Shown: piece by piece, positions 53,819 to 60,713 of the stretch
Numbering within the stretch: the stretch's first letter is position 1
How the letters are laid out: each line of letters begins with the position of its first letter
DNA from: Bythopirellula goksoeyrii
GTDB lineage: Bacteria > Planctomycetota > Planctomycetia > Pirellulales > Lacipirellulaceae
DNA length: 64,000 bases
Direction of reading: 5' to 3'
Assembly: GCF_008065115.1 (NCBI RefSeq)
Contig: NZ_CP042913.1
Location: forward strand, 1,586,338-1,650,337
The notes under the pieces: model-generated
The model's database searches: none
Told to the model about the DNA's origin: nothing
The model's input: only the letters and a program-made list of their open reading frames with translations
Position numbers and translations under genes: made by a program

Positions 53819-54958
53819 TCAATCGCGATCACTCAGCGGTGGAACCGATCTTGGAGCGGGACCGACGTACTCTGCCAAGGGACGTACCAGGCGATTGTCG
53901 GAGAGTTGCTCTGCAACGTGAGCCACCCAACCAGCCATACGGGCCATTGCAAAGATAGGTGTGAAGAGATCAATATCAAATCCCATCAGGTAATAGACAG
54001 GTCCCGCAGGGAAATCTAGATTGGGATAGATTTTCTTGGCAGAGATCATCTCGGCTTGTAGGATTTCAGAGATGTCTACCCATTTCTGACCGCCGTATTG
54101 CTTGGCAACCTGTTCTCGAAAGCGACTCATTGTCTCGACCCGAGAATCGCCATAGCGATAGACTCGATGGCCGAAACCCATGATCTTTTCCTTGGCTGCA
54201 AGTTTCTCTTGAAGCCATGTCTTTGCACGTTCGGGAGAACCGATTTCCTGTAGCATGAGCATCACTGCTTCATTGGCTCCGCCATGCAGATTTCCCTTCA
54301 ACGCGGCAATCGCTCCTGTTATCGCACCGCACAGATCGGACTGTGTGGAGATGATTACTCTCGCGCTAAAGGTCGAGGCGTTGAAACTATGCTCGGCATA
54401 CAAGATCAGGGATCCGTCGAATGCCTTGACGGTTTCGGCAGCAGGGACTTCTCCAAATACCATGTGAAAGAAGTTATCAGCAAGTGACAAATCGGGGCGA
54501 GGGGAGATCACCTTTTCGCCACGCCGCAGCCTTTGGGTGGCAGCGATCGCCGTCGGGACCTTTGCCAACAGCAAAAGGCCCTTCTCAAGGGCCGACTCGG
54601 CCGTTTCGACACCAGCGAAATCCGGTTCCATGCCGAGATAGCTGACCACCGTGCGGATTGCGTCCATGGGGTGGGCGGTCGCTGGAAACCGCTGCAGTAC
54701 TTCGAGCAATTGAGGGCTCAATTCTCGGGCAGCTCGCTCGCGCTCGGAGAATGAAGAAAGCTGTTCCTTGTTGGGCAGCTCACCGTGAAAGAGCACATAG
54801 GCTACTTCCTCGTAGGAGCAATTCGCCGCCAATTCGGCGACGGGGTAACCTCGATAGTACAGCGATTTCTCCGCCGGGTTTACGTGGGAAATCGTAGTCT
54901 TGTCGAAGACGACTCCCTCGAGACCCTTCTTGGCGACGTATTGATCCGAGTCACTCAT
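53819..54958 (-). CDS. prpC: 2-methylcitrate synthase / citrate synthase
   Basis: 379 residues. Citrate-synthase landmarks: GLEGVVFDKTTISHVN, AEHSFNASTFSARVI, GNLHGGANEAVM with catalytic His, GFGHRVYRYGDSR and the late Asp in NLDFPAGPVYYLMGF. Its position after prpD and prpB, with 15 bases to prpB, makes methylcitrate synthase (propionyl-CoA plus oxaloacetate) the likely role. It is last in the operon. Confidence 0.9.
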   Translation of the reverse strand: MSDSDQYVAKKGLEGVVFDKTTISHVNPAEKSLYYRGYPVAELAANCSYEEVAYVLFHGELPNKEQLSSFSERERAARELSPQLLEVLQRFPATAHPMDAIRTVVSYLGMEPDFAGVETAESALEKGLLLLAKVPTAIAATQRLRRGEKVISPRPDLSLADNFFHMVFGEVPAAETVKAFDGSLILYAEHSFNASTFSARVIISTQSDLCGAITGAIAALKGNLHGGANEAVMLMLQEIGSPERAKTWLQEKLAAKEKIMGFGHRVYRYGDSRVETMSRFREQVAKQYGGQKWVDISEILQAEMISAKKIYPNLDFPAGPVYYLMGFDIDLFTPIFAMARMAGWVAHVAEQLSDNRLVRPLAEYVGPAPRSVPPLSDRD

Positions 54959-54973
54959 TGCGAAATTCCACCA

Positions 54974-55867
54974 TCATAGCTTGAAATTGAATAGTTTCCG
55001 GTCGATCTCAGCATAACTCTCGTAATTCAAGAGTTGATAAAGTTCCTGGCGTGTTTGCATGCTGTTGACAGAACCTTGCTGTGTGCCAGCGGAGGCCAGA
55101 TCTTGCAAGCCGGTTTCAATCGCGTGCATTGCCAGTCGTAAAGTGGTGACCGGGTAGATCACTACATTGTACCCCAAGCTGCTGAGTTGGTCAGTGGAGA
55201 GCAATTGCGACTTGCCGAATTCAGTCATGTTTGCCAGCAATGGCACATCGATAGCCGCGCGAAACTTGGCAAATTCACTCTCGTCGGCCAGTGCTTCAGG
55301 GAAGATCATTTCAGCACCAGCATCGACGTATCGCTGCGCACGTTCGATGGCAGCATCCAGGTTTTCAACACCACGGGCATCGGTTCGCGCAATCATGAGA
55401 AAATTCGAGTCGGATTTCGCATCGGCTGCCGCCTTGATTTTGCGAACCATCTCGTCGGTGCTCACCAGTTGTTTCCCATCGAGATGGCCACATCGCTTGG
55501 GGAAAAGTTGATCTTCGATGTGGCACCCACAAAGACCTGCCCGTTCGATCGTTGTGACAGCCCTCGCTACATTGGCTGGCTCACCAAAGCCGGTATCAAG
55601 ATCAACGATCGTGGGCAAGTTGATCATACGCGTGATTGCTTCCGATCGACTGGCTACCTCGGAGAGGGTTGTAAGTCCGATATCCGGCAATCCCAGATCT
55701 GCCGAAAGGGCCGCTCCAGAAATGTAAACCCCTTCGAACCTATGTTGTTCAATCATCATTGCCACCAGGGGCGAAAAGGCACCAGGAAAACGCAACAATT
55801 TGCCACTAGCGAGTTCTTGCCGGAACCTAGAACGCCGCTCGGGCGGAGGGAGTTTTGAGGTAAGCAT
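54974..55867 (-). CDS. prpB: Methylisocitrate lyase
   Basis: 297 residues from ATG 55867, whose A is the last base of the prpD stop (TGATG). The signature KRCGHLDGKQLVS carries the catalytic Cys; DLDTGFGEPANVARAVTTIE and IARTDARGVENLDAAIERAQ are typical of the PEP mutase/isocitrate lyase superfamily, PrpB branch. It cleaves 2-methylisocitrate to pyruvate and succinate. Confidence 0.93.
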   Translation of the reverse strand: MLTSKLPPPERRSRFRQELASGKLLRFPGAFSPLVAMMIEQHRFEGVYISGAALSADLGLPDIGLTTLSEVASRSEAITRMINLPTIVDLDTGFGEPANVARAVTTIERAGLCGCHIEDQLFPKRCGHLDGKQLVSTDEMVRKIKAAADAKSDSNFLMIARTDARGVENLDAAIERAQRYVDAGAEMIFPEALADESEFAKFRAAIDVPLLANMTEFGKSQLLSTDQLSSLGYNVVIYPVTTLRLAMHAIETGLQDLASAGTQQGSVNSMQTRQELYQLLNYESYAEIDRKLFNFKL

Positions 55868-57375
55868 CAAAAAATTCCTGCCTGGTTTCTTTCGCTGGAC
55901 TCAACGATCTCAACAGGCAATTGCACGTTGAGAGTCGCAACTTCCTGAGGGGTCAGATCTGAGAGCCGACTGGTGAGTTCAAAAAAACGAACTTGCTCAT
56001 CAGCGGCAACCATTCCCTCTGTTAGTGTGCTGAACTTGTGAAGATAGTCGTTGTGGGCAAAGGGTTTCTCTCCAAAGGAATGAGCATTGGCGACGGCCAA
56101 CTCGTCAGTAATGGTTTCGCCATTCTTGAGTTCAATCTCGACGCGACCGCCGAAAGCCTTTGCTGATGGATCGGTAGCATGGTAGCGCACAGTCCACTCG
56201 GGATCTTCGACAGTCGAGATCTTGCGCCAGAGAGCGACTGTCTCGGGGCGATTGGCTCGCTCGGGAGTGTAACTTTCGACGTGGTGCCAGCGACCATCCT
56301 CCAGTGCGACGGCAAATATGTACATGATGCTATGGTCAAGAGTTTCACGCGAAGCGTGGGGATCGAACTTCTGCGGATCACCCGAACCGGTGCCGATGAC
56401 GAAGTGCGTGTGGTGACTGGTGTGGATCACAATGCGTTCGATATCGGCGGTAGACTTTATTTTGCTGCGCATCCGAAACGCCAGATCGATCAACGCTTGA
56501 GACTGATACTCCGCAGAATGCTCCTTGGTATAAGACTGCAGAATCGCTCGGCGAGGTTCGCCCGGTTCAGGCAATGGGACTTGATACTCACTCTGAGGAC
56601 CATCGAGCATGTAAGCCAGAACGCTGTCCTCCCCCTCATAAATGGGAGAGGGACTCCGCTCGCCGCGCATCGCCCGGTCGACCGCTTCGATCGCCAGCTT
56701 GACTGCATGGGCCGGGGCATAGGCCTTCCAGCTTGAGATTTCGCCCTTACGTGATTGGCGCGTGGTGAACGAGACATGTACCGCTTGCTGGATCGCCTGG
56801 TAGACAGTCTCGGTCGGCAGACGCAGCATTGCGCCAATTCCTGCTGCCTGGGCAGGACACAGATGGGCGATGTGGTCTTTCTTGTGTTTGTGAAGGCAGA
56901 TGCCGGTCACGAGTGCTATCTGGATTTCGTAGGCGGCCACGATTCCCCGTACGAGGTCGGCGCCGCTGCGACCACATTGTTGTGCGACCGCCAGCAGCGG
57001 GGGAATATTGTCTGCTGGATGGGAGTAATCTGCCGCGAGGAATGTGTCGTGCATGTCGAGTTCTCGCACGGCTGTGCCATTGGCCCAAGCTGCCCACTCG
57101 GCACAGAATTTCTGGTCATTCGCTATTCCGAAAAGCGTTGCCCCGTCGCGACGAGGATGGGCAAGTGCCTGCTGCCGGGCTGTCTGGACAGGTAAGCGAT
57201 TGATCGCGCCGATGGCCACCGCGGCGTTGTCAATCAATCGATTGGCAACCATTTCAGCCACATCCGCGTCGACGGGAACTTCCTCGGTTGCCAACTCGGC
57301 GAATTTCCAAGCCAATTGCTCTTCCCTAGGTGGGGTGTCAGCAGACGGGAAAACGCGGACGGTGTGAAGGTTCAT
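55867..57375 (-). CDS. prpD: 2-methylcitrate dehydratase (MmgE/PrpD family)
   Basis: 502 residues. PrpD features: [60 protein letters not shown] and the late [20 protein letters not shown]. First gene of the prpDBC unit, overlapping prpB by one base. It dehydrates 2-methylcitrate in propionate breakdown. The hydratase step would need an aconitase elsewhere. Confidence 0.93.
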
Positions 57376-57629
57376 GGTTTCTCAAGCGGCGTGAATTAAC
57401 TGGTTGCTATGCGGTAGCTGAATCGATTTTGCCATCCTAACGAATGGACGCAAGAGAGTGCTAGCACACGGACGGAAGATAAAGCTCGTGTTGTGATTTT
57501 TGCGGCAATTCGCTACGTTGCCAGCGTATCTAGCATCTATTCGATACCCCGCAATTGAATCCAGCTAGGACTGCTTGGAAGCCTGCGCCTCGCGTTTGGC
57601 CAGAGATTGCTCAGTTCAAGGAAGAAATC

Positions 57630-60600
57630 ATGAGAATCACTCAATTGAAACTCGCCGGCAGGGGAGCCTGGCCCGACTTGCATGTCAATCCGACCCATCC
57701 CCAACTCAATGTATTTTTTGGCAAGCCAGGTGCCGGCAAGAGTACCGTTGCCCAACTCGCCACTCATCTTCTCTATGGCAAAGCGAATAGCTATTGGCGA
57801 CAACAGTTCGGCCAAACCTTGCCTCTGACTGAGGGCGAACTCGCCATCGAGAGTCCGGGCGGAAGCTTTGTACTCCGCAGACATTTGAATGCTGAAGGTA
57901 GGAGTCGCCTCACCGTCTCGGCAGTCGATGGTGAATCTGTGGATGGTGATACCGTACAAAAACTCCTAGGCAATCTTTCTCCTCAGGTGATCGCTCCGCT
58001 CGTAGCCGTGGATTTTGCGCAAGCGCCCTCGGTCGAATGGCTGTTGAGCAGAGACTTTTGTGATGAGTTAACCAAGTCCGAAGAGTCGATTCGCAAGCCA
58101 CTAGTCGCACACACTTGCTGCAATGGAATTTCTGAAGCGGAATCATCTCCGGTCGATCGACGTCAAGTTGAGCAACTTATCCGCCAGCGAGATGCGATTG
58201 CGGAATCAATCGAGAGACATCTTTCCGCACGTCGCCAGGAAGGTGGCGTCTTGTCGGAAGAACTGGTCCAACTTGAATCTTTGATAGACACTCGCCGGGG
58301 ACAACTCGATTCACTCCAAGCTGAATTGGGGCGGATCCATGGCGAGATTGCCGACAGCGAGGCCCGTTTGCGAATAGTCTCGCTGACCAATGTGGCGGAG
58401 CAGCCCAAACACTCGGATAAATACACGAAACTTCGGGAACAACTCGAGCACTTGGAAACCGAAGTTTCTCAATGCCGAAAGGCATTGGGAGATTTGCAAT
58501 TGCGTGAGGCGACGATTCGCGCCGAGCTTGCACAACTACGTGCGGACGGCACGGCGGAGCGAGTGAGTTGCCTGGCAGACAGCCGCGCTTCGGTGGGAAT
58601 CTTAGAGCGATTGATCGACGACCTCGACGCGGAAGTGGCACTGTTGGCTCGTGCAAATGAGCCGACAAGGTGTGTGGGACATGACTCACACGGGAAGCTT
58701 TCGCCCGTTGCAGCCATGCTACGGCAGCAAGTCTACACGCTCTGTGGCTTGATTACCGAGCAAGAACGGCAATCGCAGCGACAGCGACTGACGGCAGAGT
58801 CCCGCCAACTTGCGCGTTCCCAGTTTGATTTGAGTGAACGACTGGAGCATCTCCTAGAACAACGTGAATCGTTGGTTCACGAGTTGCGGCATGCCGATGA
58901 ATATACCCTTCTGCGTCCCCAGCCACCTATCACTGGGCATTGCGAGTGTGATCACCATCACGCGTTTCTTGGCGAAGCGGACTCGTTGCTGGTGGGGTAT
59001 GACCCGCGAAGTGTTCAGGAAACCGACTTGCGCAGTCGCTATGAGTCTTTGTTACGCAAGCAGGATGAATTGTCAGAACAGCAAACGAGTACTCAGCGAG
59101 AACTTTCCGAACTCGACTCCCGTTGGCAGCAACTTCAACGAGTGCGAGCTGGATTGGTTGGCAACTCAGCAATCGAGGAACAACAGTTCGAGCTTGAGCG
59201 ACTTGAGATCGCCATTCGCAAGGCCCTCAAACCGACCGAGAAAACCAGAGTGTCGGGACAAAGTGTCTGGCGTGCTTCGGATGTGTTAGCCCAACTGAGC
59301 GATGGGCAGTTTGTGAAAATCCGACTCGATCGAGGAGGACGGTCTCCGATAGTTATCGACCATTTGGGGAAGAGCTATTCACTTCGTGAACTCTCCACGG
59401 CAACCCACGATCAACTTTATCTTTCGCTCACCCTGGCCTTGATGGGAGCCTTTGCACGTCGGGGAATTCATTTGCCACTCGTTCTTGATGAGCCCTTTCT
59501 CCGACAGGATTCAGCTGGCAGCGCTGCTATGGCTGGTGTGCTGGAGGAGTTTGCGCGAACCAACCAACAGATGTTGGTGTTCACCGAAGACCTCGACGCC
59601 TTAAGAAGATTCGAAAGTCTGAATGCTCAAGTATTCGATTTGGCACAACTCCGCAGGGAAAAGTATGTCCCTGATGTTGCCACGACCGAGACAACCTTTA
59701 CACGCGTAGTCCGCGAAACTGAGGATGGCAGTCTCACACCCGTATTGCGAATCCGCAACAGTGCAGACGAATTGGATACTCACTATTACCTCACCGAGGC
59801 AAGCACCTTGGGCGAGTTCCCGGTGTTTGGCAGCGAAACCACCGCCATCTTTGAGAAAATAGCGATCCACACGGTTGGTGAGTTACTGCAAGCCGATCCA
59901 GATGTTATTGCCCGTCGCCTCGACCGTCGCGGCATCTCTGCCGAGACCGTGAGGCTTTGGCAGGCACACATGGATCTCATGTGTTGCACTCCAGGACTGT
60001 CACTCAACGATGCGCAAGTACTCGCGGCTTGTGGCGTTTCCAGCCATGAACAACTTCGAGCAGCAAGTGCAGATGAGTTGGCAGAGATCATCGCAGAGTT
60101 TCTTCAATCAAATCGAGGCAGCAGGTTCGCGGCATCCTCGGCTCGATTTCGTGCCGCCAGGATAAGAAAATGGACAAGTGGTATGAAGCAAGCAACAACT
60201 CCACGATTTGAGTCCAATGGCAGTTCTGGAACAAGCTTGCGCGTGCCTGAAACCAAACAGCAGAACAACCGAGTGCCCAGGTTTTTTCTGAGTCTCGAAA
60301 GCAATGTCGAGGATGCGCCCGCCATTGGCCCTAAGACGGCAGAGCACCTCGAACAGGTAGGCATACGTATCGTGGCCGACTTGCTCAATGCCAATGCAGA
60401 GGCAACGGCTGCGGAACTGGATATGGGGCACATTACTGCGAGAAAGATCGCGGATTGGCAACATCAGGCGCGGCTCGTCTGTCAGATACCAGAGCTACGC
60501 GGCTATGCCGCCCAGTTGTTGGTCGCCTGCGGATTTACCAGCCCCGAGCAAATCGCTGCCACCCGTACCGAGGATCTGGTACGGCAAATCAGCAAGCTGT

Positions 60601-60713
60601 GCGACACGAAGCAAGGCCAGCGAATTCTGCGGACGACGGATGCTCCCTCGCGAGGGAAGATCAAACGCTGGGCTGCTAACGCCGCTCAGGGGCGACCTTT
60701 GGAAGCGGCGTAA
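57630..60713 (+). CDS. SMC/Rad50-like ATPase fused to tandem DUF4332-like domains
   Basis: 1027 residues from ATG 57630 with AAGGAAG just upstream; the frame is open 25 codons further. Walker A is FFGKPGAGKST (residues about 29-39). Two long coiled-coil arms flank a central GHCECDHHH (residues 436-444), which could be a metal hook like the CxxC of Rad50. The signature-type motif ELSTATHDQLYLSLTLALM lies near 590-607 and Walker B LPLVLDEPFL near 615-625, Asp620-Glu621. From about 715 two copies of a helical DUF4332-like domain follow (HYYLTEASTLGEFPVFGSET ...; DAPAIGPKTAEHLEQVGIRI ...), rich in helix-hairpin-helix wording. Such domains probably bind DNA. The order ATPase-hook-ATPase-(HhH)2 suggests DNA repair or chromosome work. 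It is unlike RecN, SbcC or RecF in its C-terminal part. Stands alone on the plus strand. Confidence 0.8.
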   Translation: MRITQLKLAGRGAWPDLHVNPTHPQLNVFFGKPGAGKSTVAQLATHLLYGKANSYWRQQFGQTLPLTEGELAIESPGGSFVLRRHLNAEGRSRLTVSAVDGESVDGDTVQKLLGNLSPQVIAPLVAVDFAQAPSVEWLLSRDFCDELTKSEESIRKPLVAHTCCNGISEAESSPVDRRQVEQLIRQRDAIAESIERHLSARRQEGGVLSEELVQLESLIDTRRGQLDSLQAELGRIHGEIADSEARLRIVSLTNVAEQPKHSDKYTKLREQLEHLETEVSQCRKALGDLQLREATIRAELAQLRADGTAERVSCLADSRASVGILERLIDDLDAEVALLARANEPTRCVGHDSHGKLSPVAAMLRQQVYTLCGLITEQERQSQRQRLTAESRQLARSQFDLSERLEHLLEQRESLVHELRHADEYTLLRPQPPITGHCECDHHHAFLGEADSLLVGYDPRSVQETDLRSRYESLLRKQDELSEQQTSTQRELSELDSRWQQLQRVRAGLVGNSAIEEQQFELERLEIAIRKALKPTEKTRVSGQSVWRASDVLAQLSDGQFVKIRLDRGGRSPIVIDHLGKSYSLRELSTATHDQLYLSLTLALMGAFARRGIHLPLVLDEPFLRQDSAGSAAMAGVLEEFARTNQQMLVFTEDLDALRRFESLNAQVFDLAQLRREKYVPDVATTETTFTRVVRETEDGSLTPVLRIRNSADELDTHYYLTEASTLGEFPVFGSETTAIFEKIAIHTVGELLQADPDVIARRLDRRGISAETVRLWQAHMDLMCCTPGLSLNDAQVLAACGVSSHEQLRAASADELAEIIAEFLQSNRGSRFAASSARFRAARIRKWTSGMKQATTPRFESNGSSGTSLRVPETKQQNNRVPRFFLSLESNVEDAPAIGPKTAEHLEQVGIRIVADLLNANAEATAAELDMGHITARKIADWQHQARLVCQIPELRGYAAQLLVACGFTSPEQIAATRTEDLVRQISKLCDTKQGQRILRTTDAPSRGKIKRWAANAAQGRPLEAA

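Follow-up and report, generated by a model that had tools for sequence, protein, structure and literature searches.

The gene described here lies in a stretch of 64,000 nucleotides of the Bythopirellula goksoeyrii genome (contig NZ_CP042913.1, positions 1,586,338 to 1,650,337; hereafter the window, numbered from its first letter), where positions 57630-60713 of the plus strand form one open reading frame with a product of 1027 amino acids. The host genome is a single contig of 6.47 Mb. Translation and orthologue alignment confirmed the reading frame, coordinates and strand given in an earlier note on this DNA; the ATG at 57630 matches the aligned start of the Bythopirellula polymerisocia Pla144 orthologue (L033; 71% identity), and an alternative in-frame TTG lies upstream at 57555. 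Together with Pfam matches, these comparisons support the description of the product as an SMC/Rad50-like coiled-coil ATPase fused to two helix-hairpin-helix (HhH)-like DUF4332 domains.

The ABC head is split into two lobes. Lobe I (residues 1-140, 57630-58049) contains an AAA_27 match over residues 1-117 (23.6 bits against a Pfam cut-off of 22) and the Walker A motif GKPGAGKS (residues 31-38, 57720-57743). Lobe II (residues 545-680, 59262-59669) contains the signature position LSTAT (residues 588-592, 59391-59405), aligned with the family, and the Walker B motif LVLDE (residues 617-621, 59478-59492). Between them run an outgoing coil arm (residues 177-342, 58158-58655), a turn carrying the Cys/His site C348-V-G-H-D-S-H354 (58671-58691), the distal part of a returning arm (residues 353-422, 58686-58895), a mid-arm motif H437-C-E-C-D-H-H443 (58938-58958) and the proximal returning arm (residues 464-533, 59019-59228). 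The tail comprises DUF4332 domain 1 (about residues 735-834, 59832-60131), DUF4332 domain 2 (residues 898-1020, 60321-60689) and a C-terminal LEAA (residues 1024-1027, 60699-60710) that is similar to the ssrA tag. Both DUF4332 copies (PF14229) separately pass the Pfam cut-off of 23.2 bits, domain 2 with 67.3 and domain 1 with 56.6 bits, and HHH_5 matches the C-terminus with 37.1 bits (cut-off 27). A split head with Walker motifs near residues 31 and 620, coiled-coil arms and two HhH-like tails had all been proposed in the earlier note, and all were found; it overlooked two features described below, namely that some members of the family no longer have an ATP site and that the Ala-Ala end is conserved.

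Curated models led us to reject an ordinary RecN, SbcC or SMC orthologue. All matches of the window protein to curated equivalog models (NCBIfam) fell under their cut-offs: the best Rad50 model gave 11.4 bits against 1000, the SMC model TIGR02168 gave 7.1 bits against 567, and the RecN model TIGR00634 was not among the NCBIfam matches. No SMC hinge domain appeared among Pfam matches up to E 1, and a single-sequence search of solved structures gave none at E 1. A profile of 34 relatives, however, matched Rad50 lobe II (best E 4e-9, 3qku_A) and gave a weak match (E about 0.02) to the HhH of Y-family polymerases. Like Rad50 and SbcC, the window protein has an ABC head split by an antiparallel coil, with Walker A and Walker B flanking predicted helices from 177 to 533, and a Cys motif at the apex; unlike them, it has a C-x5-H site (CVGHDSH, 348-354) or, in its sister clade, CxCxxxH in place of the CXXC zinc hook, carries tails, lacks an adjoining Mre11/SbcD gene and has lost Walker A in 12 of 34 orthologues. 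RecN of E. coli is likewise a single-gene SMC-like protein with an Ala-Ala C-terminus (LLAA), but is 553 amino acids long and has no DUF4332.

The N-terminal AAA_27 lobe points to YhaN-type proteins and was matched at E 0.01 in 11/34 members of the window's own family. In the same genome, a YhaN-like gene (L083:8833-12288) aligns with the window protein over the signature and Walker B region (LSRGTREQLFLSIRLA / LSTATHDQLYLSLTLA; 29% identity over 479-666). This paralogue differs in having a hydrophobic hairpin inside the coil, an adjoining SbcD-like gene and no DUF4332, whereas the window protein is marked by Cys/His motifs at the apex and in the mid-arm, a pair of DUF4332 tails and the lack of a nuclease neighbour. 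The YhaN-like and SbcD-like pair (L083:8833-13647) has a counterpart of its ATPase in most Pirellulales genomes searched. In a literature search of limited extent, no description of this SMC-like DUF4332 protein was found; DUF4332 itself turned up in one paper, where the legend of a figure on a rhodopsin operon names it.

At least three family-level groups within the class Planctomycetia contain the fusion of head, coil and DUF4332, so that the survey suggested in the earlier note did recover the same arrangement elsewhere. Three sets of relatives were compared: Lacipirellulaceae, the window's family (f1; an alignment of 34 sequences, with the contig-end fragments L029 and L046 excluded); another family of the same order (f15; 16 fused members out of 20 loci plus L081, making 17, with the shorter DUF4332 proteins L089, L101, L102 and L103 excluded); and a family from another order of the same class (f22). 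Wider tallies of 159/397 and 90/97 mix in YhaN-like paralogues and DUF4332-only proteins and are not counts of the SMC-like DUF4332 family.

Since the full-length model was built from two input sequences and reached a mean predicted local distance difference test score (pLDDT) of 50.3 and a predicted template-modelling score (pTM) of 0.25, only its secondary structure was used. Coil helices are predicted at 177-254, 262-302, 319-342, 353-422, 464-510 and 513-533, and a turn at 343-352 divides the coil into arms 177-342 and 353-533, roughly equal on either side of residue 348. The earlier note had taken GHCECDHHH for a hook at the centre of the coil. The motif itself is real (436-444) and is conserved in one clade beyond chance, but its placement did not hold: in the low-confidence model HCxCxxH (437-443) sits in a loop (423-463) that breaks the returning arm half-way down, 90 residues past the likely apex, and the turn is occupied by a different conserved Cys/His site, C348...H354, that had gone unmentioned. 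Helix layout and conservation thus reject HCxCxxH as the central hook.

The two sites are distributed unevenly. In the window clade (19/34 Lacipirellulaceae), C438, C440 and H443 are kept in 19/19 and H437 in 18/19, while at and near the apex C348 is present in 14 members, H354 in 17 and C372 in 19. The other 15 members, the sister clade, are without HCxCxxH, and their turn reads CxC in 15/15 with H354 in 14/15 (CxCxxxQ in L022). CxCxxH recurs in 3/17 fused f15 members (L099, L100, L088), of which L099 also has an apex CxC 90 residues before, and in 7/20 f22 members, three of which (L136, L124, L139) carry a CxC 85-90 residues before. Because CxC motifs occur at one or both places in three family-level groups, the two sites look ancestral, and most simply have often been lost. 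Conservation of the motifs suggests that they may bind metal.

The ATPase motifs show a graded pattern. In f22, Walker A is present in 20/20 members and the signature LS[RS]G in 19/20. In f15, a Walker A-like P-loop is found in 12 of the 15 members that could be judged (L097 and L098 are N-terminally cut) and is absent in L091, L086 and L096, and Walker B is altered in many members; three long proteins of this set (L087, L090, L095; 1481-1540 amino acids) have diverged heads without the usual Walker B acidic pair and retain a P-loop-like motif and two DUF4332 domains. Within Lacipirellulaceae, Walker A is kept in the window clade and in L022, L027 and L032. In the window clade the glycine of the signature, present in YhaN and in 19/20 f22 relatives, is replaced by A in 12/19 (LSTAT in the window protein) and kept as G in 3/19, and the histidine found in the H-loop region of the YhaN-like paralogue is missing. 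The remaining 12/34 members have lost Walker A, with no lysine at the aligned place and no GK[ST] (L024 has a displaced CKT); their Walker B glutamate position holds E in 5, D in 4 and Q in 3.

These 12 Walker-less members form one clade (Shimodaira-Hasegawa-like approximate likelihood ratio support, SH-aLRT, 99) in a quick tree that was built without these motif columns and took in 6/17 f15 rows; Walker A on this tree requires two changes over 40 rows. Open frames are full-length in 12/12 and the apex CxCxxxH is kept in 12/12. The ratio of non-synonymous to synonymous rates (omega) in this clade was 0.12-0.28 for the coil, indicating purifying selection, and 0.07-0.14 for DUF4332 domain 2 (5/6 pairs unsaturated in each case), whereas for lobe I it was 0.17-0.51 (5/6 pairs) compared with 0.06-0.23 in the Walker A clade (four pairs); mid-arm values, which for the sister clade come from 4-14 codons, were set aside. 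Mean pairwise identity within the Walker-less clade was 0.57 and 0.55 in the distal arms, 0.59 at the apex and 0.60 in DUF4332 domain 2, against 0.29 in lobe I. Loci of the two clades (18 with and 12 without Walker A) also have neighbours in common: an uncharacterised 249-amino-acid gene (8/18 and 5/12), an O6-methylguanine methyltransferase gene (8/18 and 4/12, often convergent) and a response regulator gene (6/18 and 4/12). Given one clade, purifying selection and common neighbours, the Walker-less proteins look like orthologues in which ATP binding was lost in place rather than distant paralogues. In 8/12 Walker-less loci (L069, L070, L071, L073-L077) a GGDEF (diguanylate cyclase) gene stands directly upstream on the same strand; this neighbour and the methyltransferase were used for the synteny argument alone.

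DUF4332 was detected in 31/34 Lacipirellulaceae members (E 0.01). L032 and L027, of one genus, have lost it and carry Arg/Lys-rich runs instead (for example RRRRRRRK and PRKKRTIRRAVRR); L022 gave no match at this threshold, yet both domains align, and L016 has a single DUF4332 that appears to be a fusion of the two repeats. Domain 2 was modelled confidently (pLDDT 90.6, pTM 0.85, four sequences). In VIA-align superpositions, the second half of this domain matched an HhH-type region in the Pol theta helicase (Z 8.9 over 68 residues at 3.0 A); the first half matched the N-terminal modules of DinB, Pol iota, RAD51D and RadA (Z 6-7) as well as NusA AR2. DNA binding by the tails is likely on these models and, as DUF4332 resembles the HhH modules of DNA-handling proteins, a DNA-related role for the whole protein is plausible by analogy. 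Other DUF4332 genes were also seen. The same genome encodes a stand-alone DUF4332 protein of 198 amino acids with an Ala-Ala end (L111:5249-5845, minus strand), with similar small genes in several relatives, and in other Pirellulales families (f11, f12 and f15; L043:7177-8769, L040, L041, L042, L044, L045) DUF4332 is fused to a phospholipase-C-like domain, which in L043, the one scored, matched Zn-dependent phospholipase C with 30.9 bits (cut-off 26.8).

An Ala-Ala end was found in 31/34 Lacipirellulaceae members, the remainder ending in PA or VA, in 14/17 f15 members (one is cut by a contig end and two have one extra residue) and in 20/20 f22 members, compared with 3/265 conserved and 5/227 other open reading frames among neighbouring proteins. 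The window protein ends in LEAA, the transfer-messenger RNA (tmRNA) tag of the same genome is ANGNYALAA and E. coli RecN ends in LLAA, so the end resembles the region of a ClpXP signal. PMC10714372 reports that ClpXP recognises the C terminus of E. coli RecN and degrades the protein through it.

The neighbours of the gene in the window are, on its upstream side, a divergent MmgE/PrpD gene and, downstream, a gene for a J-domain protein. No constant operon partner was found across the loci mapped, which agrees with its earlier description as a lone gene, and no Mre11/SbcD or YhaO/SbcD-like nuclease occurs in the window neighbourhood or constantly in the mapped loci. The MmgE/PrpD gene (identified by Pfam) belongs to a row at 53819-57375 on the minus strand that, with citrate-synthase-like and isocitrate-lyase-like genes recognised by eye, looks like a methylcitrate cluster. 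Elsewhere, the genome has an ordinary SMC gene, which is also its sole match to TIGR00634 (32.2 bits), so that RecN was not found in it; nor was RecN found in any of 97 Pirellulales genomes by a search that recovered it in 9/14 control genomes. Replacement of RecN by the SMC-like DUF4332 gene was considered and rejected: RecN is missing from all 97 genomes, with or without the gene, and since its absence does not track the gene, co-occurrence does not indicate replacement. The gene is carried by 35/42 Lacipirellulaceae genomes (E 2.8e-29 or better).

As an explanation of the whole, we favour, at a rough probability of 0.42, a DNA tether that works alone, belongs with the coiled-coil ABC ATPases (Rad50/SMC/YhaN) and is under optional ATP control, because the Walker-less proteins keep best their distal coil, apex site and second tail. 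The parts best kept are those that would be needed to hold two DNA segments apart, and the part worst kept is the ATP-binding lobe. Two protomers would be joined at the apex of the coil via its Cys/His site (C348...H354), a second Cys/His site (HCxCxxH) in the mid-arm break would hold or bend the arms, and the two HhH-type tails beside the head would bind DNA. Since an SMC hinge can take the place of the Rad50 hook, as reported in PMC6969161, another type of dimerisation module at the apex would still be in keeping with such proteins. In the window protein, Walker A and B are kept but the signature is altered and the H-loop stretch has no histidine, so ATP engagement by the head followed by slow hydrolysis is probable, and this would open and close the head end. 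In the sister clade, ATP control would have been lost, leaving a constitutive bridge. The Ala-Ala end may mark the protein for ClpXP-type proteolysis and so limit its amount, as for E. coli RecN. By family resemblance, the setting could be DNA repair or the nucleoid.

Several observations weigh against this interpretation. C350 is missing from all 19 window-clade members, 5/19 are without C348, and CxCxxH is missing in 13/20 f22 and 14/17 f15 members; most sampled f15 and f22 members having neither site, an indispensable metal site is disfavoured. With so poor a full-length model, the geometry of apex and mid-arm should be regarded as tentative. Foldseek gave no match for DUF4332 domain 2 at E 0.001 (best 0.33), structural Z scores below 8 may reflect merely a common arrangement, as VIA-align itself cautions, and HhH-type domains bind proteins too, NusA AR2 with SuhB being among the structural matches. 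The Ala-Ala end also terminates 6/9 other DUF4332 proteins examined and may thus travel with that domain rather than be a degron; evidence for its independence comes solely from two tail-less members of one lineage, L032 and L027, which still end in DAA. The window protein also has E, and not L or A, before its Ala-Ala. The gene is dispensable, as seven of the 42 genomes of the family are without it, including G001 and G013, which are more than 90% complete. Finally, SOS regulation was considered and rejected, as LexA-type boxes (three known box types and a half-site pattern) were found in none of 32 upstream regions; upstream 4-base dyads reached 5 sequences, a number reached by 1/30 shuffles.

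If DUF4332 were a protein-binding module, the product might instead be a structural coiled-coil protein with a degenerate ATPase head, serving as a scaffold in cell division, the envelope or the nucleoid. HhH-type domains can indeed bind protein, the coil arms are the most constant part, and the phospholipase-C-like partner of DUF4332 in L043 is not obviously a DNA protein. We nevertheless consider a scaffold unlikely, since DUF4332 domain 2 retains its HhH hairpin with HHH_5 over the cut-off, lost tails are replaced by Arg/Lys-rich stretches that fit nucleic acid binding, and f22 relatives retain canonical ATPase motifs. Intact Walker A and B in the window protein and LSRG in 19/20 f22 relatives, together with a head related to Rad50 and YhaN, would also suit a Rad50/SbcC/YhaN-type repair ATPase with added DNA-binding tails, whose partner would be an Mre11/SbcD-like nuclease from another locus, such as the one beside YhaN. 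The earlier note had suggested looking for such a nuclease gene elsewhere, and an SbcD-like gene does adjoin YhaN; however, it scores below the cut-off of TIGR00619 (33.7 bits), is the sole SbcD match in the genome and is paired with its own YhaN. With no nuclease beside the window gene, no constant neighbour in the mapped loci and 12/34 orthologues that cannot have a working Walker A, this explanation seems distinctly improbable.

A place in anti-phage defence, as the SMC-like sensor of a Lamassu-kind system, was suggested by the best PADLOC match, LmuB (1.8e-15, 55.2 bits). PMC10586767 describes LmuB as having a short coil, in many cases with a hook, and in general an E-to-Q change in Walker B, which three Walker-less members share; LmuB is thus an earlier example of an SMC-like protein whose hydrolysis is probably impaired. 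The match seems unspecific, though, as the same model scores the ordinary SMC of the genome higher (1.5e-27, 95.1 bits), and the Lamassu identity is disfavoured on that ground. LmuB is also about 650 amino acids long and lacks DUF4332, three window neighbours were scanned without a PADLOC match, the mapped loci show no recurring effector-like partner, and vertical inheritance, shared neighbours and presence in 35/42 genomes of the family are unlike a mobile defence island; we regard this origin as very improbable. That the Walker-less gene is simply decaying and kept by inertia is scarcely credible: lobe I is relaxed in that clade, but the selection test on the coil and DUF4332 domain 2, the full-length frames and the invariant apex contradict it.

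To conclude, new here are the fusion across three family-level groups, the loss of Walker A under selection and the Ala-Ala bias. The general view is that SMC and Rad50 proteins need ATP to drive the engagement of their heads. A bolder proposal, which we put forward tentatively and hold to be doubtful, is that an SMC/Rad50-like lineage lost ATP binding in place and gave rise to ATP-independent DNA tethers with a coil linked at two Cys/His sites, HhH tails and control by proteolysis in place of ATP hydrolysis; the CxC sites, 85-90 residues apart in the distal arm, could then pair crosswise between two antiparallel protomers, stapling the dimer in a way that differs from the single hook of Rad50. 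The family also provides an alternative kind of metal hook (CxC/His) that can be put to the test, a candidate role for DUF4332 and possibly a logic in common with RecN, the removal at protein level of an SMC-like repair factor, in an order in which RecN was not found among 97 genomes. Its members grade from the canonical motifs of f22, by way of the altered signature in the window clade, to the 12/34 proteins that have no Walker A, all of them in a single orthologous family that is partly syntenic and under selection; they make it possible to ask directly how a coiled-coil tether functions once its motor is gone.

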